From the NCBI GenBank assembly GCA_030037955.1, contig JASHPT010000118.1:1-47124 (forward strand): a stretch of DNA of 47,124 nt, in the 5' to 3' direction. Below the pieces are notes generated by a model, which was not told the DNA's origin, made no database searches, and saw only the letters and a list, made by a program, of their open reading frames with translations. The position numbers and the translations under genes are program-made. This document shows positions 13,821 to 25,757 of this stretch, in pieces. The stretch's first letter is position 1. Every line of letters starts with the position of its first letter. The DNA comes from Thermoplasmata archaeon. GTDB lineage: Archaea > Thermoplasmatota > Thermoplasmata > Lutacidiplasmatales > UBA184.

Positions 13821-15071
13821 ATGGATGAACCAGGAACGGCTCGGACTCGTTCGGCGAGCCCGTGGACTCCCTCCTCGCTCGTGGAGGAGGATGACAGAGC
13901 GAATCTCGCCCGGCGTCTGCAACGGATGGGCACCGTGACGATCGGGGTGTCCCTTCCCCGAGAGTGGGTCGGCACCCGGAACCTCTCCGTCGGAAGCACG
14001 GTCTTCCTCCGTGCGCTCGCCGACGGCTCCCTGCTGATTCAGGACCGAGACCCGTCGAGCGAGCGGGCCTCCGTCGAGGTCCTGGTTCAGCCGGACCGTT
14101 CCCGGGAGCACACCTTTCGGGACCTCGTGGCGGCCTATCTCGCGGGGGCGCGAGAGTTCGTGATCCACGAGAAGGATGGCATCACGCCCGAGACGATGGC
14201 TGTCGCCAAGACCTTCGCGCGACGCACACTTCAGCCCGAGATCGTCTCCGAAGAGCGGGGCGTGCTCATCCTGCGAGATGTCTCGCGGGGGGCCGAGCTC
14301 GACGTCGTCCCGCTGCTCCGACGGATGTTCCAGATCGTGCTGGGCCTCCAGCAGGAGGCGGCGCACACCTGGTCCGAGCCGGATCGGTGGCGCGGCACTC
14401 GGTGGGAACAGCGGGACGACGAGGTGGATCGCCACGCGTGGCTGATCGAGCGCATCCTCGCGCTGCGACTCGCGGGCGCGGTTCCGGGCGCCGACGCCGG
14501 CTTCCCCGTGGACCGCCCCCTCCAGACGCTCATCCTCGTGCGGTCGCTCGAACGGATCGGTGACCATGCCGTCCAGATCGCGGACCAGGGCCTTCGGTGG
14601 GCCGAAACCTCGCCGCCCGACCGGCTGGTCCGACCGGTGTCGGAGTTCCACGGTCAGGTGCTGGACCATCTCCGGGCTGCGTTCCGGGCGGCTTCGGAGG
14701 AGCGCGACGCCCTCCACGCGAACGACGTCATCGACGTCGGCGAGGCGCTCCACGCGACGTATGCCACCCTCACAGAGGGGCTGTTCACGCGCGGGAGTGG
14801 GAGTGGACTCTCGGCCCTCGCCGCCGTCCCGCTGGGTCTGATCCTGCAGTCGATCGACCGGACAGTGTCCTACGCGCAGGACATCGCCGAGGTCGGACTC
14901 GATCGAAGCACCGTCATGTCGGTCGCCGACGGGGCCGGCCCGGCCCTTCCCGCGGTTGCGACGGCATCGTCCCGGACCCCCAGGGGGGCTGGTCGCGGGA
15001 CCGTACGAGTGGAGCCCCCCGTTAACGCGCCACGGAATCGAAGGAGAAAACAGGAGAAGGAACCAGAATGA
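13821..15071 (+). CDS. AbrB/SpoVT-like DNA-binding domain plus PhoU-type phosphate uptake regulator
   Basis: N-terminal swapped-hairpin-like RLQRMGTVTIGVSLPREWVGTRNLSVGSTVFLRALADGSLLIQD; PhoU-like helical region LILVRSLERIGDHAVQIADQ. Immediately precedes pstS. Confidence 0.87.
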   Translation: MDEPGTARTRSASPWTPSSLVEEDDRANLARRLQRMGTVTIGVSLPREWVGTRNLSVGSTVFLRALADGSLLIQDRDPSSERASVEVLVQPDRSREHTFRDLVAAYLAGAREFVIHEKDGITPETMAVAKTFARRTLQPEIVSEERGVLILRDVSRGAELDVVPLLRRMFQIVLGLQQEAAHTWSEPDRWRGTRWEQRDDEVDRHAWLIERILALRLAGAVPGADAGFPVDRPLQTLILVRSLERIGDHAVQIADQGLRWAETSPPDRLVRPVSEFHGQVLDHLRAAFRAASEERDALHANDVIDVGEALHATYATLTEGLFTRGSGSGLSALAAVPLGLILQSIDRTVSYAQDIAEVGLDRSTVMSVADGAGPALPAVATASSRTPRGAGRGTVRVEPPVNAPRNRRRKQEKEPE

Positions 15072-16288
15072 GCGCACCAAACCAACAGAGTGAGACTATC
15101 CAGAGCAAGGGGTCCAGCCGTACCGGCTGGTACGCCGCGGTCGCGGTGATCATCGTCGTGATCATCCTGTTCGCAGGACTGTACGCGGCCGGGTACATCG
15201 GCAAGAAATCGACGGGCCCCTCGACTCCTGGAACGTGCACCTCGGTCACGATCCTGGGTGCGGGCTCGACGTTTGTGGAACAGCTACAGGATGAGTGGGC
15301 GTCGGTGTACTCGACGAGCACGGTAGACTACGACGCCGTCGGTAGCGGCGCCGGCATCTCGGATATCACGGACAAGACCGTGACCTACGGCGCCAGCGAT
15401 GCTCCGCTCAATGCAACGCAGACGACGGCGCTGCCAGATCCCGTTCTGACCATGCCCGAAACGGCGGGCGCGGTCGCCGTGATCTTCTACCTGCCCGGGG
15501 TCACCTTCCCGCTCGGGTACTCCCTCAACATGACGGGAGCCATCCTGGCCGAAATCTACCTCGGTGACATCACGACCTGGAACGACTCGGCGATCACCGC
15601 CATCAACCCGTCCCTGTTGCATGATGGCGTCCCGGTGTCCGCGGCCAACAACACCATCGTGGTGTATCACCGGTCGGACGGGAGCGGAACGAGCTACGCC
15701 TTTAGCCAGTTCCTGTCGGACAGCAGCAGCACGTGGAAGTCCACCATCGGGTACAGCACCCTGCCGAACTGGCCCAAATTCAGCTCGGCCGTCGGCGCCA
15801 AGGGGAGCTCGGGAATCGCCGGTGGCGTGAAGGACACGCCCTACTCGATCGGGTATGTCGACCTGGGCGAGGCGGCAAGCAACGTGCTGAGCTACGCCGC
15901 CGTGGAGAACCCGTCCGGGAAGTACATCATTCCGACGGTGAACAACACGGCCTCGGCGATCACGGACCTCCTGGCGACGACCACGCTGCCGTCGGGCTCT
16001 GCCAGCTGGGCCAACGTGTCGATGATCAACGCTCCGGGAGTGAAGGACTACCCGGTCGCGACGTTCTCGTACATGTTGTTCTATGCGGAGGCGAAGAACA
16101 ACCCCGTGATCACGAGCCAGGCGTATGCGTCGAGCTTCGCCAACTGGCTCAACTGGACGGTCACGAAGGGGCAGACGTACTCGGCGCAGCTCTACTTCAT
16201 CCCGCTGCCGGCAAGCGTCGTTACGGCCGACCAGGCCACCATCGCGTCGATGACCTACAACGGAGCGGCGATCCCCGCGTGTTCGTAG
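15068..16288 (+). CDS. pstS: Phosphate ABC transporter substrate-binding protein PstS (membrane-anchored)
   Basis: TM anchor AVAVIIVVIILFAGLYAAGYIG, then VTILGAGSTFVEQLQDEWASVY, VVYHRSDGSGTSYAFSQFLS. ATGA overlap with upstream gene. Confidence 0.93.
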   Translation: MSAPNQQSETIQSKGSSRTGWYAAVAVIIVVIILFAGLYAAGYIGKKSTGPSTPGTCTSVTILGAGSTFVEQLQDEWASVYSTSTVDYDAVGSGAGISDITDKTVTYGASDAPLNATQTTALPDPVLTMPETAGAVAVIFYLPGVTFPLGYSLNMTGAILAEIYLGDITTWNDSAITAINPSLLHDGVPVSAANNTIVVYHRSDGSGTSYAFSQFLSDSSSTWKSTIGYSTLPNWPKFSSAVGAKGSSGIAGGVKDTPYSIGYVDLGEAASNVLSYAAVENPSGKYIIPTVNNTASAITDLLATTTLPSGSASWANVSMINAPGVKDYPVATFSYMLFYAEAKNNPVITSQAYASSFANWLNWTVTKGQTYSAQLYFIPLPASVVTADQATIASMTYNGAAIPACS

Positions 16289-16334: not shown

Positions 16335-17336
16335 ATGCTTCGGAGCACGCGGACTCCCGGCCGAACCCTTTCCGTCCGGCTCCGGCGACTCTTCGACCTG
16401 AGTTTCCTGGGCCTGACCTTCGCGGTGGCCCTCGGAATCCTGGCGCTTCTCACGGCGTTCGTACTGGTCCTCGTGCACGGCGCCCAGTTGACGATCGCGC
16501 GGTACGGGATCTCGCTGCTCGGCAACCCCAACTGGGCGCCGAGCCTGAACCAGCTCGGACTCCTCCCCTTCATCGTGGGTACGCTACTCACGTCGGTGAT
16601 CGCGCTGATCATCGCGATCCCCCTCAGCCTGGGGATTGCGATCTTCCTCTCGGAGCTCGCCCCCCGATGGATCTCCGAACCGTTCGGCTATCTCGTGGAA
16701 CTCCTTGCGGCGATCCCCTCCGTCATCTACGGGCTGTGGGGGATCTTCATCCTCGTCCCCTTCATGCGGACCGACGTCCAGCCGGTCCTGCGGTCCTGGA
16801 ACCTCTCGGCCAACAAGACGTTCCATGTGAACATCCCCCTGTTCACGGGTCCGATCTTCGGGTTCGGCGTCTTCACCGCGGGGGTCATTCTCGCGATCAT
16901 GATCATCCCGACGATCTCGGCGATCTCGCGAGAGGCCCTCAAGGCAGTCCCGCAGCCGCAACGGGAAGCGGCGCTCGGCCTCGGCGCCACCGGATGGGAG
17001 ACGACCCGGATCTCGGTCCTGAGCTACGCACGGATCGGAATCGTGGGCGCGGTCATCCTCGGTCTCGGCCGGGCCATCGGGGAAACGATGGCCGTCACGA
17101 TGGTGATCGGCAATGCCGACGTCATCCCGGCATCCCTGTTCGCCCCGGGCCAGACGATCGCGAGTCTGATCGCGAACGACTTCCTGTCCGAGGCGAGCTC
17201 CCCCCTGGCCACGAGCGCGTTCATCGAGGCGGCGCTCGTCCTGTTGCTGATCACCCTCGCCATCAACGTCGGCGCGCGCGCACTGGTCTGGCGCCTGGTA
17301 GCGCAAGGAGGGGGAGGCGGGGCCAATGAAGTTTAA
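16335..17336 (+). CDS. pstC: Phosphate ABC transporter permease PstC
   Basis: GTLLTSVIALIIAIPLSLGIAIFLSELAP, LLAAIPSVIYGLWGIFILVPF, GLGRAIGETMAVTMVIGN. Confidence 0.95.
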   Translation: MLRSTRTPGRTLSVRLRRLFDLSFLGLTFAVALGILALLTAFVLVLVHGAQLTIARYGISLLGNPNWAPSLNQLGLLPFIVGTLLTSVIALIIAIPLSLGIAIFLSELAPRWISEPFGYLVELLAAIPSVIYGLWGIFILVPFMRTDVQPVLRSWNLSANKTFHVNIPLFTGPIFGFGVFTAGVILAIMIIPTISAISREALKAVPQPQREAALGLGATGWETTRISVLSYARIGIVGAVILGLGRAIGETMAVTMVIGNADVIPASLFAPGQTIASLIANDFLSEASSPLATSAFIEAALVLLLITLAINVGARALVWRLVAQGGGGGANEV

Positions 17337-18189
17337 CCGCGACGGCCGCCGCCGGATATTCAACTGGGTCGTGGCCGGCCTCTGTTTCCTCTGCGTGATC
17401 GCCGCCCTCGTGCCGTTGCTGAGCATCATCTACACGGCCTTCGTCAACGGCGCTCGCGTGCTCAGTTTCAACTTCCTGGTCGCTCCGCTGTCGTTCGGCG
17501 TCTGTGCCCCGAACGTCAGTTGCTACGGGGGCATCGGGCCGGCCCTCGCCGCCACGCTGATCGTGGTCGGCGTCGCGTCGGCCATGTCCCTGCCGGCCGG
17601 TATCCTGGCGGGCATCTACCTGTCGGAGTACGGCAAGCACCCCTTGGGACGGTCGATCAGCTTCTTCACCGACGTCATGACCGGTTCCCCCTCGATCGTC
17701 GTCGGTCTCTTCGTCTACGCGATGTTCGTCTACTTCGACCGGGCGATCGCGTTCAGCGCCCTGTCGGGCTCGGTCGCGCTGGCGGTGATCATGATCCCGA
17801 TCGTGACCCGGACGACCGAGGAGGGCCTCCGGCTGGTGCCCAACACGCTCCGCGAAGGGGCATACGCCCTCGGGATCCCTCGCTACCGGACCGTGCTCCA
17901 GGTCGTCCTCAGCTCGGGACGAGGTGTCGTGATCACCGGGGCTATTCTCGCGGTGATGCGGGCCGCGGGCGAGGTGGCCCCACTCCTGCTCACGGCCTTC
18001 TGGAGCGACCGTGGGTTCACCGGACTCACCCAGCCCGCGGGGTTGCTGGGCCCGCTCATCTTCATGGACGCGACCAGCCCGTCCCCGGCCCTGGTAGCGA
18101 CGGCGTGGGGGGCGTCGCTTATCCTCATCCTCCTCATGCTCGGCATCAGCCTCACCGCCCGGATTGCGCTCAGGAAGCGCTTCGGCTGA
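17326..18189 (+). CDS. pstA: Phosphate ABC transporter permease PstA
   Basis: [58 protein letters not shown]. Confidence 0.94.
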
Positions 18190-18208: not shown

Positions 18209-19009
18209 ATGGAAGGAGAAGCGCTCGGACCGTCCGCCGGCCTCAACCATGATGGCGCCCCCGCGAAGATGTCGGTCGCGAAGCTGTCCGCCTTCTACGG
18301 GAAGAAGAAGGCCGTCTCGGACGTCTCCCTCTCCTTCCGAGAGAACAGCGTCACCGCGATCATCGGACCGTCCGGCTGCGGGAAGTCCACGCTGATCCGG
18401 TGTCTCAACCGGATGCACGAGGTGAGTCCCGGGGGCCGCGTCGAGGGCCAGGTCCTCCTCGATGGAGAAGACATCTACACCCAGGACCCCGTGACGGTTC
18501 GCCGCCGCATCGGGATGGTTTTCCAGAAACCGAACCCGTTCCCCACGATGTCGGTCTACGACAACGTCGCCGCGGGGCTGCGGCTGAACGGCGTCCGCAA
18601 GCGCGAGGTCCTCGATGCCGCGGTCCTGCGGAGCCTGAAGCAGGCGGCCCTCTGGGACGAGGTCAAGGAGAGCGTCCATGGCTCCGGCAACCGGCTCTCG
18701 GGCGGACAGCAGCAGCGGCTCTGCATCGCCCGCGCGCTGGCCATCGAGCCCGAGGTCATCCTCATGGACGAGCCGTGCTCGGCCCTCGACCCGATCGCGA
18801 CCGCGAAGATCGAGGACCTGATCTTCGACCTGCAGAAGTCCTACACCGTGGTCATCGTGACGCACAACATGCAGCAGGCGGCGCGGGTCGCGGAGTATAC
18901 GGCGTTCATGTATCTCGGCGAGCTCATCGAATACGACCGCACGAAGAAGATCTTCGAACAGCCCGCCCAGAAGCTGACCGAGAACTACATTACGGGAAGG
19001 TTTGGGTAA
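18209..19009 (+). CDS. pstB: Phosphate ABC transporter ATP-binding protein PstB
   Basis: Walker [72 protein letters not shown]. Confidence 0.96.
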
Positions 19010-19746
19010 TGCCGACCGCTGTGGAACGCAAAGCGCTCTCCGAGGCACTCGACCGCCTGAACGAGAACATGCGCACCATGTCCGAACTCGCCGTGCTGGC
19101 GATCCGGAAGGCCGTGCAGGCGCTCGAGAAGGGCCGGAGCCATGACGCCGACGAGGTTTTCACACTCGACGAGGAGATCTACGGCCTCAAGCACAAGATC
19201 GAGCAGTCGTGCATCGAGCTCATCGCCCTCTACGCCCCCGTCGCCACCGACCTGCGGACCATCACCGCCTCCCTCGAGATCACGACGGACCTGGACCGCA
19301 TCGGCCGCTACTCGAAGGACATCGCCGAGGCGGCCGAAAAGCTCCGAGGCATGAGCCGGGAAAGCCTGGGGAAGGTCGGGAACCTCACCCGGATGGCCGA
19401 CCTGACGATCCAGATGATCGAGACCTCGGTCAACGCGTTCGCGCAACGCCAGGCGGACCCCGTCCGGGACATCGTCCGCACCGACGACGCGATCGACACC
19501 CTCCACGACGAGGTCTTCCAGGAACTCGTGGAGAAGATGACCGACCAGTCGGTCGCTCCCCGCGTCGGCGCCCAGTACATCCTGATCAACCGATACTTCG
19601 AGCGGCTCGCCGACCACGCCGTCAACATCGGCCTGGACGTGATCTACATGATCACCGCGGAGCGGCCCATCAAGGCGAAGCATCGGGACTCCACTCCCCA
19701 CGGGGCGGCCGCTGGACCGTCCGTTCCGCCGGGGGAGCCGTCGTAG
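19009..19746 (+). CDS. phoU: Phosphate transport system regulator PhoU
   Basis: Tandem PhoU helical repeats: LYAPVATDLRTITASLEITTDLDRIGRYSKDIAE and YILINRYFERLADHAVNI. ATG overlaps pstB stop. Confidence 0.93.
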   Translation: MPTAVERKALSEALDRLNENMRTMSELAVLAIRKAVQALEKGRSHDADEVFTLDEEIYGLKHKIEQSCIELIALYAPVATDLRTITASLEITTDLDRIGRYSKDIAEAAEKLRGMSRESLGKVGNLTRMADLTIQMIETSVNAFAQRQADPVRDIVRTDDAIDTLHDEVFQELVEKMTDQSVAPRVGAQYILINRYFERLADHAVNIGLDVIYMITAERPIKAKHRDSTPHGAAAGPSVPPGEPS

Positions 19747-19765: not shown

Positions 19766-21277
19766 ATGACCCAGCTCCATCCGCCCACCGTCCCTCGGGC
19801 GCTCCGGCAGGCCCTGATCGAGACCGGGCCGATCGGGTCGACCACGCGTCAGCTGTCCGTACGACTCGCGCAGCCGGAGTCCGAGCTGGACGGGCTGCTC
19901 GAGCAACTGGCACGCCACGGCGCCGTCGTCCGAATCGGCCGGGGACTCTGGCTCCTGTCGGCGTACGCCCACCTGGATGCACGGGAGGATTTCCACGCGC
20001 CCGAGGACTATGTCGAGCGCTTCTCGCGGGAGTGCGGCGTCGTACTCGGACGCTACGAGGGTCCGATCACCTTCGCGGACAACTCGAACTCCCCGGTGCA
20101 CCGGTGGTGGCCCTACGTGCAGGGCTACTCCGCCGAGTTCGTGGCCGGGGTCCTCGAGGACGAGGAACTCCGCCGGGGCTCGACGGTCCTCGACCCGTTC
20201 GCGGGCAGCGGCACCACCCTGGTCGAAGCCCGCCGGGCCGGTCACCGGGCCTGGGGGACGGAGCTGCTCCCACCGGCCGCCCTCGCGGCCCGGGTCAAGA
20301 CGCACTTTGAACTCTCGGGACGTCGGCTCCAGTCCGCCGCTCGGGAGATACTGCGCCACGCCGCGCGTCGCGCCTCCGCTCCGCCTCCGTTTCTCCGCGA
20401 GACGTCCCGGCAATTCATCCCGCGGACCCTCCGGCAGCTCACCCGTCTTCGGGATGCGCTGCCGCCACCGGGGGGGCCCCAGAGCGACGCCGTGCGCCTG
20501 TCGTTCGGCCGGGTCCTGATCCCTGTGAGTCGCCTGCGCCGGTCTCCCTGTCTGGGGTACGGCCGGCCGGATGCGAACCAGTACCGCGACCCGTTCGCGG
20601 AATTCTCGAGGGCGATCGACGACATGGTGGAGGACCTGGAGGCTCTGGGCGAGGTACGTGCGCACTGGGGGCCGCCCAGCCAGGTCTGGGAACAGGATGC
20701 GCGTACGCTGACGCTCCCGCCCGGGTCCGTCGACCTCGCGGTGACCAGCCCGCCGTACGTGAACGGCATGGACTACGTGAACAACTACAAGCTCGACCTC
20801 GCCTGGCTGGGGTACGCCCACGGATACCCCGACCTCCGCCGACTCCGCGAGAGCTTGGTCGCCTGCGACAACTTGGGCCGGGCCGCCGTTCGGCCCCACC
20901 TCGGTACGGAGGATGTGGCGGACTCGTGGCTCCGGGAGATTCTCCGGCAAATCCGGAGCAACGTGGACCGGAAACAGAGTTACCGTAGGGACGACGCCCA
21001 CGGTGTGGTGAAGCGATACTTCTTGGACCTGCGGCCGGTGCTCGCCGCCGTGTACCGAGCGCTTCGACCCGGGGGCCGCTTCCGGTTGGTCGTCGGGGAC
21101 TCCCTCCTGGCGGGCACCTACGTTCCCGGCGACCTGCTGACGGCCCGTCTCGGCACCGAGGTCGGATTTCGTATCGACACGGTGGATGTCGCGCGCCGTC
21201 GGTGGTCCGGCCAGCGTCGGAGCTTCCCCCTGCGAGAAACGATCGTTACGCTGCAGCGGCCGGCCGCCGCTTCGTAG
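19766..21277 (+). CDS. Winged-helix-fused DNA methyltransferase (SPPY type, putative N4-cytosine/N6-adenine)
   Basis: Motif I DPFAGSGTTLVEARRAGHRAWGTEL (20192-20218) precedes motif IV DLAVTSPPYVNGMDYVNNYKLDLAWLG (20741-20758). N-terminal helix-turn-helix-like region. Confidence 0.83.
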   Translation: MTQLHPPTVPRALRQALIETGPIGSTTRQLSVRLAQPESELDGLLEQLARHGAVVRIGRGLWLLSAYAHLDAREDFHAPEDYVERFSRECGVVLGRYEGPITFADNSNSPVHRWWPYVQGYSAEFVAGVLEDEELRRGSTVLDPFAGSGTTLVEARRAGHRAWGTELLPPAALAARVKTHFELSGRRLQSAAREILRHAARRASAPPPFLRETSRQFIPRTLRQLTRLRDALPPPGGPQSDAVRLSFGRVLIPVSRLRRSPCLGYGRPDANQYRDPFAEFSRAIDDMVEDLEALGEVRAHWGPPSQVWEQDARTLTLPPGSVDLAVTSPPYVNGMDYVNNYKLDLAWLGYAHGYPDLRRLRESLVACDNLGRAAVRPHLGTEDVADSWLREILRQIRSNVDRKQSYRRDDAHGVVKRYFLDLRPVLAAVYRALRPGGRFRLVVGDSLLAGTYVPGDLLTARLGTEVGFRIDTVDVARRRWSGQRRSFPLRETIVTLQRPAAAS

Positions 21278-21291
21278 CCGGAGAGGTTCCC

Positions 21292-22170
21292 GTGGCCCCA
21301 GCCAAACCCACGGCCCGGGAGGCGACGGTCCTTCGGGCCGAGATCGCCCGGTCGGCCCGTCGGGCCGAAGATGGTCTCCGAGCCGCAGCCTACCGCGAGA
21401 TGCCGGACCCCGAGACGCTGCACCGACTCCACCGGGACCTCCGCGAACTCCGGGTCTCGCATCGACTCCTGATCCCGCTCCCCAAGATCGGGCCCCACGA
21501 GGACGCCACCGACCGGCGACTGCGCAAGCTCGCGGGCCTCGTCGGCGAGGTTCGGGACCGGGATGTCGCCACCGACCTCCTCCTGCGCGCGGGCCGCGGC
21601 ATGGACCCCCGGCTCCGACAGAGCCTCCGGTCCCGGCTCCGACACGAGGGCCAGGTTGGGCGGGAGCTCCTCCGGGCGGCGGCGCGCGCGGAACTCGAAC
21701 GCCACCTGTTGCAGACCGTCATCCGGGATGTGGCCGGGGCGACCGTCCCGGGTCCGGCCCGGCTGCGACGCGAGCTGGAGTCGGCGCTCGCGCAACATCA
21801 TCAGACGGTCGTGAGGGCGTTTCGCCGGGGATTGAAGAAGCCCTCCACCCGACGGCTGCATCGGCTCCGGATCTCTCTCCGAAATGCCCGGGCCCTACGG
21901 GTACTCGTGGGTCGAGCGACGGGGCACCCGGCCGAGTCGGTGCCGTCCGACCTCGAGAAGCTCCAGCGGACCCTCGGACGCCTGCACGACCTCGATATGG
22001 TCGCCGACCGAATCGCCGCGCTTCCGTCCGGGGAGAACATCGACCGGTGGGAGCGGCAATGGCGCCGGGCACGGAAAGCCGAACGGATCCAGGCCTTGGC
22101 CCGCATGCAGCGACGCCGGACCCGAAAGTCGCTCGCATGGCTTACCCTGGCGACGACCGAGGGTGGATGA
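21292..22170 (+). CDS. CHAD-domain protein
   Basis: Arg/His-rich helical protein with LHRLRISLRNARALRVLV and LQRTLGRLHDLDMVADRI. GTG start inferred. Confidence 0.83.
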   Translation: MAPAKPTAREATVLRAEIARSARRAEDGLRAAAYREMPDPETLHRLHRDLRELRVSHRLLIPLPKIGPHEDATDRRLRKLAGLVGEVRDRDVATDLLLRAGRGMDPRLRQSLRSRLRHEGQVGRELLRAAARAELERHLLQTVIRDVAGATVPGPARLRRELESALAQHHQTVVRAFRRGLKKPSTRRLHRLRISLRNARALRVLVGRATGHPAESVPSDLEKLQRTLGRLHDLDMVADRIAALPSGENIDRWERQWRRARKAERIQALARMQRRRTRKSLAWLTLATTEGG

Positions 22171-22237
22171 CCGAGAGGACGTGGACCCCGGCGCGGGGTT
22201 CATAGGCCGGGGGGACTTGCGCGTGACGCCACTCACC

Positions 22238-23788
22238 ATGTCGGCGAGTTCTCCCAGCCTCCTGAGCGAGATCCGGCCTGGGGAGGCCAGCCAGCTCGCC
22301 GTCATCGACCTGGGCTCGAACACCGCCCGGCTCGCGATCTTCGAGGTGACGGGGGAAGGAGGTCTGCGGACCGTCTACGAGGTGAAGGAGGTGCCGCGCC
22401 TCGGGAAAGGCGTCCGCGACGACCTCTCCCTCTCGCCGGGCGCGATCGAGCGCGGGCTGGCGACCCTGACCCGCTTCTCCCGGCATCTCACGGTGATGGG
22501 AAACCCGCCCACGATCGCCGTCGCCACGAGCGCGGTCCGCGACGCGCCCAACGGCCCGGCCTTCCTGGAGCGCATCGCCCGGAGGACCGGCATCCTGATG
22601 CGCATCATCTCCGGAGAGGAGGAAGCGCGGCTGGGATACCTCGGCGTGGCGTCGGCCTGGGAACTCGACCGGGACGTGATCGCCGACCTGGGCGGCGGCT
22701 CGCTGCAGCTCGCGTCAACGCGGGACGGCCAGCTCGAACGGTCGACCAGCCTGGCGCTCGGCGCGCTCCGCATGACGCAGGAATTCCTACGGCACGACCC
22801 TCCGAAGCGGAAGGAGCTCGAGTCGGCCCGGGACCATATTCGAGAGGAGCTCGCAGCGACGTCGCTCCCGCGGCCGTCGGAACGCCTGCGAGTCTTCGGC
22901 GTGGGAGGTACGATCCGGTGCCTTGCCCGGGTGGCGATGGAACTTCGCGAGTATCCGGTCCAGCGGGTCCACGGGTACCGGCTGAACCGACGAGACCTGG
23001 AGGTGCTCGAGGGCATCCTCCTCGAAATGCCCGCTTCGCAGCGTCGGGAAGTGCCGGGCATCAGCGCCGCCCGAGCCGATGTCATCGTCGCCGGACTGCT
23101 CGTCGTGGACGAACTCCTCCGTCGAACGGACCGAGACGAACTCTGGGTGACCGGCCACGGAATCCGGGAGGGTGCGGTGATCGAACGCCTCGCGATCCCG
23201 GTGCCGGCCTCCCAGGAGGCGCTCGCGTTCCGCTCCGTCACGGCCGCTGCCCGGGCGATGGGCTTCTCCCTGATCCACGGGGAACAGGTCCGGCGCCTGG
23301 CCCTCACCCTGTTCGACCGGCTCCAGACCCGCTACGGGTGGACCGCGAACGACCGCCTCGTGCTCTCGGTCGCCGCCTGGATGCACGACGTGGGGGCGGT
23401 CGTCGACGCCTGGCACCACCCGCAGCACTCGGCCTACCTGATCCGCAACCTGGCGAGCCTGTCGCTCACCGACCGGGACGCGGTGCTGGCCTCCCTGGTG
23501 GCGTACCTTCATGAAGGTGATGAGATGCCCGAAGGCTGGGCCAAGACATGGCGCGCCATTCTCACGCCGGACGATCTCCAGGTCGCGCGCCAGCTGGGCA
23601 CGATCGCTTACTTTGCCGAGACTCTCGAGGGAGCGCGGCTCACGGTGACGTTGCCGCGCGGCTCTCAGCGCCTGAGGATCGAGCCGCACCGCAACGGCGG
23701 GGCGACGGTGCCGCCGCGCGCCGTCGAGCGACTGCGGAAGCCGATCGAGCGCGTCTTCGAGCTGGAGCTGGTGGCCCCCGATGAGTGA
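22238..23788 (+). CDS. Exopolyphosphatase Ppx/GppA family with C-terminal HD domain
   Basis: AVIDLGSNTARLAIFEV, VATSAVRDAPNG, ISGEEEARLGYLGV, VIADLGGGSLQLAS; C-terminal HGEQVRRLALTLFD...AAWMHDVGAVVDAWHHPQHSAYLI. Confidence 0.93.
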   Translation: MSASSPSLLSEIRPGEASQLAVIDLGSNTARLAIFEVTGEGGLRTVYEVKEVPRLGKGVRDDLSLSPGAIERGLATLTRFSRHLTVMGNPPTIAVATSAVRDAPNGPAFLERIARRTGILMRIISGEEEARLGYLGVASAWELDRDVIADLGGGSLQLASTRDGQLERSTSLALGALRMTQEFLRHDPPKRKELESARDHIREELAATSLPRPSERLRVFGVGGTIRCLARVAMELREYPVQRVHGYRLNRRDLEVLEGILLEMPASQRREVPGISAARADVIVAGLLVVDELLRRTDRDELWVTGHGIREGAVIERLAIPVPASQEALAFRSVTAAARAMGFSLIHGEQVRRLALTLFDRLQTRYGWTANDRLVLSVAAWMHDVGAVVDAWHHPQHSAYLIRNLASLSLTDRDAVLASLVAYLHEGDEMPEGWAKTWRAILTPDDLQVARQLGTIAYFAETLEGARLTVTLPRGSQRLRIEPHRNGGATVPPRAVERLRKPIERVFELELVAPDE

Positions 23789-24491
23789 CCGAGCCCCGGC
23801 GCCGCCTCCCAACGGGAACAATGGCGGAATGGGACGTCTCCTCGTCGTCGAAGGTCTCGACGGGAGTGGCAAGTCGACCCAGGCCCGCCTCCTCGTGAAG
23901 TGGCTCCAGTCCCGCGGCTATCGGGTGTTCTTCACCGAGTGGAATTCGTCCGAGCTGGTGTCCGGCGTCATCCGGCGCGGCAAGAAGAAGGGTCTGCTCA
24001 CGCCGACCACGTTTGCGCTCCTTCACGCGACGGACTTTGCGGACCGGCTGGAACGGCAGATCCTTCCGCCGCTTCGGGCCGGCTACTTCGTGGTCTGCGA
24101 CCGATACTGCTACACCGCCTACGTCCGCGACGCCGCTCGCGGCTGCGACCCCGCCTGGGTGCGCAACATGTACTCCTTTGCTCCGATCCCCGACAAGGTG
24201 CTCTACTTCCGCGTACCGGTGCAGATCTCGCTGGACCGCAAGCTCGCGTCCCGCGAGCCGATCTCCTACTACGAGGCGGGGATGGACCTCCACCTCGCCG
24301 ACGACGTGGTCGAGAGCTACCAGCGCTTCCAGGCGGCGCTCCGACGCGGCTACGAGAAGCTCGTGACCAGCGATCACCTCGTGCCGATCGACGCGGCGAA
24401 GCCGGTGGAGCAGGTCCTGACCCGCGTCCGGTCCGAGGTGAAGCCGCTTCTCAACGCCTTCCCCAAGATGGAGACGCTCGTCCATGGTTAG
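23781..24491 (+). CDS. Thymidylate kinase-like P-loop kinase (copy A, canonical Walker A)
   Basis: LLVVEGLDGSGKSTQARLLVKWL, VVCDRYCYTAYVRDAARG, SYYEAGMDLHLADD. Confidence 0.87.
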   Translation: MSDRAPAPPPNGNNGGMGRLLVVEGLDGSGKSTQARLLVKWLQSRGYRVFFTEWNSSELVSGVIRRGKKKGLLTPTTFALLHATDFADRLERQILPPLRAGYFVVCDRYCYTAYVRDAARGCDPAWVRNMYSFAPIPDKVLYFRVPVQISLDRKLASREPISYYEAGMDLHLADDVVESYQRFQAALRRGYEKLVTSDHLVPIDAAKPVEQVLTRVRSEVKPLLNAFPKMETLVHG

Positions 24492-25260
24492 GACGTACGG
24501 AACACGCATCCCGAACCTTCCGAAGAAGGAGCTGCCGGGCCACCTGATCGTCGTCGAGGGCGCGGACGGCTCCGGGCGGACGACCGAGGTCGAGATGCTC
24601 CGGGACTGGCTCGAGATCCAGGGCCATCCGGTCGTCGACACCGGGCTCCGCCGGTCTACGCTGGTCAGCAAGCAGATCGACCGGGCCAAGCTGGGCCACA
24701 CCCTCGGGGGCACCACGATGGCGCTGTTCTACGCCGCCGACTTCGCGGACCAGCTCGAGAACAAGATCCTCCCCGCACTGTCGGCCGGCAGCACGGTGCT
24801 CGCCGACCGGTACACCTACACGCTGATGGCCCGGGCCATCGTCCGCGGGGCCACCCGCGAGTACGCCCAGAAGCTCTACGCCTTCGCCTTCGAGCCGGAC
24901 CTCATCGTCTTCCTCGATGCCCGGACCGACATCCTCCTCCACCGCGCGATCGCCAAGTACGGTTCGCTCGACTACTGGGAGAGCGGGATGGACCTCTCCC
25001 TGTCCCGGGACCGGTTCGAGAGCTTCTCCGCCTACCAGGGTCTCCTCAAGAAGGAGTTCGACTGGATGGCCCGGACGTATGGCTTCCAGCGCGTGGACGC
25101 GAACCGGACACCGGCGCAGGTCCACCGGGACGTCAAGGCGCTCGTCGCCGCCCTGTTCGGCAAGAAGGTGCGGATCGAGGTCGGCATCGAGGGCGGTCCC
25201 CGGGTCGCGACCGAGCCAGAAGTATCGGGGCTGGGACCGGTCGAGGGGCAGAACGCCTAA
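24484..25260 (+). CDS. Thymidylate kinase-like P-loop protein (copy B, Walker A Lys replaced by Arg)
   Basis: LIVVEGADGSGRTTEVEMLRDWL, VLADRYTYTLMARAIVRG, DYWESGMDLSLSRD. Overlaps copy A by 8 nt. Confidence 0.87.
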   Translation: MVRTYGTRIPNLPKKELPGHLIVVEGADGSGRTTEVEMLRDWLEIQGHPVVDTGLRRSTLVSKQIDRAKLGHTLGGTTMALFYAADFADQLENKILPALSAGSTVLADRYTYTLMARAIVRGATREYAQKLYAFAFEPDLIVFLDARTDILLHRAIAKYGSLDYWESGMDLSLSRDRFESFSAYQGLLKKEFDWMARTYGFQRVDANRTPAQVHRDVKALVAALFGKKVRIEVGIEGGPRVATEPEVSGLGPVEGQNA

Positions 25261-25757
25261 CCCAGCCGCTCGAGCTGCTTCCGCGTCAGGATCCAGTCGA
25301 TCTCGGCCGCACCGGCCCTCGCTTCCCGGGGGAAGGTCAGCTGCGCCACCCCCGCCTTGGCGAACCGGGTGATCGGAACGGAGTCCCCGGTGACGGCCAG
25401 TCCGAGCAACTCGCCGAGCGTGGGCTCGTGGCCCACCAGGGCAACGCCCCGGCGGCGGGAGTAGCGTTGCACGCGTTCGAGGATCGGCCCCGGTGAAGTG
25501 TCCGGCTCGAGCTCGTCCCACAGCTCGAGCTCCGCGTCGATCGCGAGCACCTCTCGGAAGATCTCGGCGGTCGCCCGCGCCCGGACGGCCGGGCTGGAAA
25601 CGACCTTGTCAACGCCCGGCTCCAGCCGGGCGAGGCCTTTCGCGGCGCGCCGGGTCGAGCGCTCGCCCTCCGGGGTCAGCGGCCGGTTGCGGTCGTCCGG
25701 CCATCGGGAAGGGTCGCGGTCCGCCGCCGGGCCATGCCGGATCAGGAGGAGGTCCAT
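25257..25757 (-). CDS. SixA-like phosphohistidine phosphatase (histidine phosphatase superfamily)
   Basis: MDLLLIRHGPAADRD, RPLTPEGERSTRRAAKGL, VVSSPAVRARATAEI, VALVGHEPTLGELLGL. Confidence 0.88.
   Translation of the reverse strand: MDLLLIRHGPAADRDPSRWPDDRNRPLTPEGERSTRRAAKGLARLEPGVDKVVSSPAVRARATAEIFREVLAIDAELELWDELEPDTSPGPILERVQRYSRRRGVALVGHEPTLGELLGLAVTGDSVPITRFAKAGVAQLTFPREARAGAAEIDWILTRKQLERLG

Follow-up and report, generated by a model that had tools for sequence, protein, structure and literature searches.

Background

Polyphosphate (polyP) is a store of phosphate and energy. Sulfolobales store polyP without either of the polyP kinases PPK1 and PPK2, and crenarchaeal polyP synthesis was called unexplained up to 2021 (PMC6864096, PMC7831078). 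According to PMC11677633 (2024), a polyP-synthesising enzyme has recently been characterised in Sulfolobus acidocaldarius, and papers citing Hofmann et al. (bioRxiv 2024.08.28.610084; JBC 2026 302:111283) credit them with a distinct archaeal family 3 PPK from this species. Here we describe a locus on a contig of a Thermoplasmata archaeon (JASHPT010000118.1, assembly GCA_030037955.1). The whole analysed stretch of 47,124 nucleotides is referred to as the window. It contains two overlapping genes, A and B, which encode proteins of thymidylate kinase (TMK) fold and stand among genes for a Ppx/GppA-family exopolyphosphatase (PPX), a CHAD-domain protein and a SixA-like phosphatase. Sequence comparison makes it highly probable that A and B constitute a two-gene, probably heteromeric PPK of TMK fold; this enzyme is very likely identical with the family 3 PPK of archaea.

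The closest described arrangement is the CHAD cluster of Sulfolobales (PMC10892726, Fig. 2), which has the same SixA, PPX, dTMP kinase and CHAD genes. The kinase is mentioned there once, in the figure legend, without discussion as a PPK. The window differs from this cluster in the adjoining pst-phoU phosphate-uptake genes and in the convergent orientation of SixA. The ppx gene of S. acidocaldarius is Saci_2018 (PMC7831078), and in a genome putatively belonging to this species (G431) two TMK-like genes follow ppx (locus L159). Because of this position in the S. acidocaldarius operon, family 3 PPK is very likely A and/or B. G431 carries the order SixA-PPX-A-B-CHAD, and the A and B genes of the window have their orthologues in the TMK-like genes which Sulfolobales carry in their polyP operon. 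However, the window comes from another phylum, and its B has arginine at the Walker position where the second kinase of G431 has lysine.

Most likely, the pair in the window is a member of this recently described family, and it is probably not new for archaea as such. We found no paper in which the TMK-like pair of Thermoplasmata or bacteria is identified as a PPK; Hofmann et al. may cover its distribution. The module was termed uncharacterised in the first-pass annotation of this DNA, a description overtaken by the family 3 PPK which citing papers report from S. acidocaldarius, provided that this enzyme is, as seems very likely, A and/or B.

Results

Conservation of the A/B pair

To describe the pair beyond the window, 80 named loci were gathered by a search with A proteins only; the presence of B was no selection criterion. 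B directly follows A in all 80 loci, and in all 80 the Walker-A position is occupied by lysine in A and by arginine in B. These loci belong to archaea (Thermoplasmata, Nitrososphaeria, Bathyarchaeota, Methanoliparum and others) and to many bacterial phyla, among them Acidobacteriota, Chloroflexota, Verrucomicrobiota, Nitrospirota and Planctomycetes. The designation of the module as archaeal in the first-pass annotation was thus too narrow.

In an aligned set (n = 57), lysine of the Walker A motif GxxGxGK[ST] is found in all 57 A proteins, and arginine in 53 of the 57 B proteins including that of the window. In Sulfolobales (n = 13, loci L154-L166) the second kinase has diverged much further than elsewhere, with arginine in nine cases and lysine in four (L158, L159, L162 and L163), L159 being the locus from G431. 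In a tree constructed with four canonical TMKs, B proteins form a well supported clade (0.996) and A proteins a weak one (0.41); Sulfolobales copies fall inside these A and B clades. Pairwise distances of A and of B correlate (0.89), in line with co-inheritance. Moreover, A and/or B occur in 97 of 106 genomes of the order to which the window belongs, and the arrangement in the window is therefore no chance event. A and B constitute one ancient tandem pair.

Active site and fold

In canonical TMKs, thymine is bound by residues of the TEP motif, of the Phe/Arg pair and of the AYQ motif. The corresponding positions in 57 A proteins were compared with those of T. thermophilus TMK and three other canonical TMKs. 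In A, the [TR]-E-P-x-x motif is replaced by EWNSS, with WNSS invariant; the thymine-stacking phenylalanine is replaced by histidine and the following arginine by phenylalanine (HATDF motif); AYQ is replaced by [AV]RD. Key residues of the replaced motifs are invariant in 57/57 A proteins, and the thymine (dTMP) pocket of A is accordingly predicted to be rebuilt. Invariant basic residues K68, R116 and R217, which are not matched in any of the four canonical TMKs, would suit polyanion binding. The full P-loop, the DRY motif and the conserved lid-region arginine are retained in essentially all A proteins. In B, compared with the same four TMKs, GL[KR]RS, YxxDF and AR stand in place of the thymine-site motifs.

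Confident AF2 models (pLDDT 92 for A and 88 for B) were compared with solved structures by Foldseek. The best fold match of both proteins is ST1543 of S. tokodaii, followed by canonical TMKs. The A protein of the window is 45% identical to ST1543 (2PLR), which is itself an A protein: it finds a 100% match in genome G523, within a SixA-PPX-A-B-CHAD operon. Structures of ST1543 were deposited as dTMP kinase, with ADP as the sole named ligand among the entry titles listed. Among structures outside the PPK2 family, ST1543 was also the one nearest to Francisella PPK2 (PMC4748334).

PPK2 (PF03976) thus resembles A and B in its TMK-related P-loop kinase fold. A further likeness concerns class II PPK2, where an inactive domain is fused to an active one (PMC8776046), a parallel to the roles proposed for B and A. 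Nevertheless, neither A nor B matches PF03976 or contains the PPK2 motif DRSWYN, and sequence and fold place both in the TMK family. Given the absence of a profile match and ST1543 and TMKs as top Foldseek hits, a disguised PPK2 was rejected. With thymidylate kinases (PF02223, TIGR00041) A and B share the fold, the P-loop, DRY and the lid-region arginine. The differences are the replaced thymine-site motifs of A, the missing Walker lysine of B, the obligate tandem arrangement and the polyP neighbourhood.

Linkage to polyP genes

Neighbourhoods of homologues were tabulated, as had been proposed in the first-pass annotation, and a linkage extending across two domains of life emerged. Within 2 kb of the pair, PPX is found in 42 of the 80 named loci, CHAD in 28, SixA in 22 and PPK2 in five; at least one of these genes is present in 51 loci. 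Chance expectation, for a gene occurring about once per 3-4 Mb, is well below one locus. CHAD domains are known to bind polyP (PMC6537752). The order SixA-PPX-A-B-CHAD is conserved in 13/13 Sulfolobales loci.

Joint presence and loss were examined in the 106 genomes of the window's order. Both A/B and PPX are present in 96 genomes, nine have neither, one has A/B without PPX and none has PPX alone (Fisher p = 3e-12). In the single genome with A/B but no PPX (G073), B is located 421 bases from the contig end.

Distribution of PPK1, PPK2 and other TMKs

PPK1 (PF02503) has the role proposed here for A and B, synthesis of polyP, but it is a phospho-histidine enzyme of unrelated fold and mechanism. 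It was detected in only 5 of 50 A/B genomes drawn from many phyla; of these five, four are Verrucomicrobia and one belongs to Ignavibacteria. Among 197 genomes of Acidobacteriota its distribution is complementary to that of A/B: PPK1 is present in 3 of 29 genomes with the pair versus 110 of 168 without it (p = 4e-8, uncorrected for ancestry). This distribution looks like one polyP synthase displacing another. In a sample of 155 Verrucomicrobiota genomes the pair is rare (one genome) and PPK1 common (119 genomes); having a single A/B genome, this sample is silent on exclusion between the two. PPK2, mostly a polyP user, was found in 25 of the same 50 A/B genomes and in 0/13 Sulfolobales.

The assembly containing the window (contig C110) comprises 1.88 Mb in 168 contigs and is 89.6% complete. 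As the first-pass annotation had supposed, profile search revealed neither PPK1 nor PPK2 in this genome, about 10% of which is missing from the assembly. Within Thermoplasmata, the PPK1 search covered this genome and six named ones. The other canonical tmk whose search had been suggested was found on contig C50, so that A and B are not the only tmk homologues of the genome. This third TMK has canonical TEP, DRS and AYQG motifs, its neighbours resemble TatD, TBP and Cdc6, and its best solved relatives are Pseudomonas and Thermus TMKs. A third, lower-scoring TMK match is also present in most A/B genomes of Acidobacteriota and Sulfolobales.

Apart from this, a further single TMK-like family occurs in Acidobacteriota (G211, G249, G257 on contig C37, G270 and G305). 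It scores 164-175 bits, between B and canonical TMK, and PPK1 is present in three of its five genomes.

Gene content of the window

Genes of the locus are listed in Table 1. The CHAD gene, Ppx/GppA gene, two overlapping TMK-fold genes and convergent SixA gene of the first-pass annotation were all recovered in their places downstream of pst-phoU by open reading frames and profiles. Two details had to be amended. Firstly, the CHAD gene does follow pstSCAB-phoU, but not directly: an unmentioned gene for a DNA-methylase-like protein lies between them. Secondly, the Ppx/GppA assignment stands, while its "HD tail" was rejected as a special feature, since it is the standard domain III of Ppx/GppA proteins and the HD family PF01966 stays below cut-off in a profile scan.

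Table 1. Genes of the polyP locus and the adjoining phosphate-uptake operon (positions in the window)
Feature	Position	Strand	Profile evidence
PhoU-domain regulator upstream of pstS, weak MazE-like N-terminal match	13821-15071	+	
pstS, pstC, pstA, pstB (phosphate transporter)	15068-16288, 16335-17336, 17326-18189, 18209-19009	+	assigned from sequence, no profile
PhoU, last gene of the upstream pst phosphate-uptake operon	19009-19746	+	TIGR02135, 170 bits, above cut-off
DNA-methylase-like protein between phoU and CHAD	19766-21277	+	two separated N6_N4_Mtase matches, PF01555
CHAD-domain protein, likely polyP-binding	21202-22170	+	PF05235, 75 bits, E 1e-20, cut-off 25.6
Ppx/GppA-family exopolyphosphatase with C-terminal domain III	22238-23788	+	PF02541, 193 bits (cut-off 27); PF21447, 41 bits (above cut-off)
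TMK-fold kinase A, Walker A GLDGSGKST, TEWNSS motif	23781-24491	+	PF02223, 96 bits
TMK-fold kinase B, Walker A GADGSGRTT (Lys to Arg), GLRRS motif	24484-25260	+	PF02223, 67 bits
SixA-like histidine phosphatase, convergent with B	25257-25757	-	TIGR00249, 80 bits, cut-off 74.5

The CHAD reading frame has an in-frame alternative start, GTG at 21292, which the first-pass annotation had adopted and which may be the true one. The PPX protein scores 283 bits with the exopolyphosphatase profile TIGR03706 (cut-off 307), which leaves the choice between exopolyphosphatase and GppA undecided by profile. Overlaps of 8 bp, both between the PPX gene and A and between A and B, suggest that PPX, A and B are expressed as a single transcript with coupled translation. 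Removal of phosphate from phosphohistidine is implied for SixA by its family name only.

The closest named matches of this neighbourhood are found in Thermoplasmata archaea (e.g. L095, L099 and L102). In Thermoplasmata, relatives of the DNA-methylase-like gene are found close to polyP genes in L065, L095, L099 and L102, and PhoU-family matches near the A/B pair also occur in Nitrososphaeria loci L042 and L066.

Two other kinds of neighbourhood were observed among the named loci. In seven loci (L034, L041, L043, L057, L063, L105 and L110), a protein resembling ROK-family sugar kinases is encoded no more than 500 bases from the pair; polyP glucokinases are members of the ROK sugar-kinase superfamily. 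In L062, L072, L077, L090, L104 and other Verrucomicrobia, the pair has no recognised polyP gene within 8 kb, and some of these loci instead have apparent respiratory-complex genes in the vicinity.

Discussion

Gene content and order, the pairing of A and B, their motif differences, linkage to and joint loss with PPX, the scarcity of PPK1 and a separate canonical tmk were all directly seen. A reaction, its direction, an A-B complex and roles for B, CHAD and SixA are what we infer from them. A would be the catalytic subunit, with nucleotide bound at its intact P-loop, and would reversibly shift the terminal phosphate between the ATP/ADP couple and a polyP chain end. This chain end would sit where canonical TMKs hold dTMP, that is in the former nucleoside monophosphate (NMP) pocket of A. 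B would act as a structurally similar polyP-binding or regulatory partner that keeps the fold and the aspartate, its Walker lysine being changed to arginine; the arginine P-loop may hold phosphate or polyP without ATP chemistry. CHAD might keep polyP at the A-B complex, PPX would take off terminal phosphates, and pst-phoU would import phosphate.

With appreciably less confidence, we lean towards a more general rule. A two-subunit PPK, composed of a subunit with a lysine P-loop and an obligatory subunit with an arginine P-loop and a distinct job, e.g. gripping polyP, would be widespread in archaea and many bacterial phyla. It would mostly replace PPK1 outside Verrucomicrobiota and be carried in databases under the name "dTMP kinase". 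The Lys-to-Arg partner and the displacement of PPK1 in bacteria may be new.

Several points weigh against A and B as a PPK. A scores 99 bits with TIGR00041, the NCBIfam dTMP kinase equivalog, which is above the cut-off of 83, and B falls just below it; A proteins are therefore named dTMP kinase by automatic annotation. The fold of both proteins matches TMKs rather than PPK2. No polyP gene is found nearby in 29 of the 80 named loci, many of them from Verrucomicrobia and some on short contigs. Four of seven Verrucomicrobia A/B genomes examined also have PPK1, and the PPK1 statistics ignore shared ancestry.

TMK-fold enzymes phosphorylate NMPs, and A (perhaps also B) could be a polyP-dependent NMP kinase like class II PPK2, which spends polyP synthesised elsewhere. 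Some PPK2 enzymes phosphorylate NMPs with polyP as donor (PMC8776046), and polyP-degrading PPX stands in the same operon. We consider this unlikely, however, as PPK1 is absent from 45 of the 50 A/B genomes and PPK2 from half of them, Sulfolobales store polyP with neither, and the NMP pocket of A appears rebuilt. Storage of polyP without PPK1 and PPK2 requires a synthase, for which A/B are the best-placed candidate.

Still less probable is a non-catalytic nucleotide or energy sensor regulating PPX, CHAD or phosphate uptake, with B as a degenerate P-loop protein. Such a role would agree with the loss of the Walker lysine in B of all 80 named loci, the rest of its site being conserved, and with the packing of the window genes with pst-phoU. 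On the contrary, the full P-loop, DRY and lid-region arginine of A fit catalysis, and a mere regulator would leave the scarcity of PPK1 unexplained. The least credible reading, ordinary dTMP kinases duplicated beside polyP genes by coincidence, can draw on the TIGR00041 annotation and on the names given by depositors of the ST1543 structures, but was rejected in view of the canonical tmk in the same genome and the apparently rebuilt thymine pocket, to which the third TMK match in most A/B genomes of Acidobacteriota and Sulfolobales, the joint loss with PPX, the linkage conserved across phyla and, as weak negative evidence, ADP as the sole ligand in the listed ST1543 titles may be added.

The view of the first-pass annotation that the TMK-like pair acts on polyP rather than as dTMP kinase is thus well supported by the separate tmk, the lack of PPK, the polyP linkage and the predicted change of the pocket.

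Conclusions

Until about 2024, the synthesis of polyP in archaea devoid of PPK1 and PPK2 had no explanation. The locus described here and its relatives extend the apparent Sulfolobus answer to Thermoplasmata, Nitrososphaeria and many bacteria. Extensions worth following are the bacterial spread with displacement of PPK1 and the Lys/Arg subunit rule, and the Lys-to-Arg partner itself raises a well-defined question of mechanism. The name "dTMP kinase" may be mistaken in many database entries, and A/B would be overlooked by surveys which score genomes as polyP-negative by the absence of PPK1 and PPK2.

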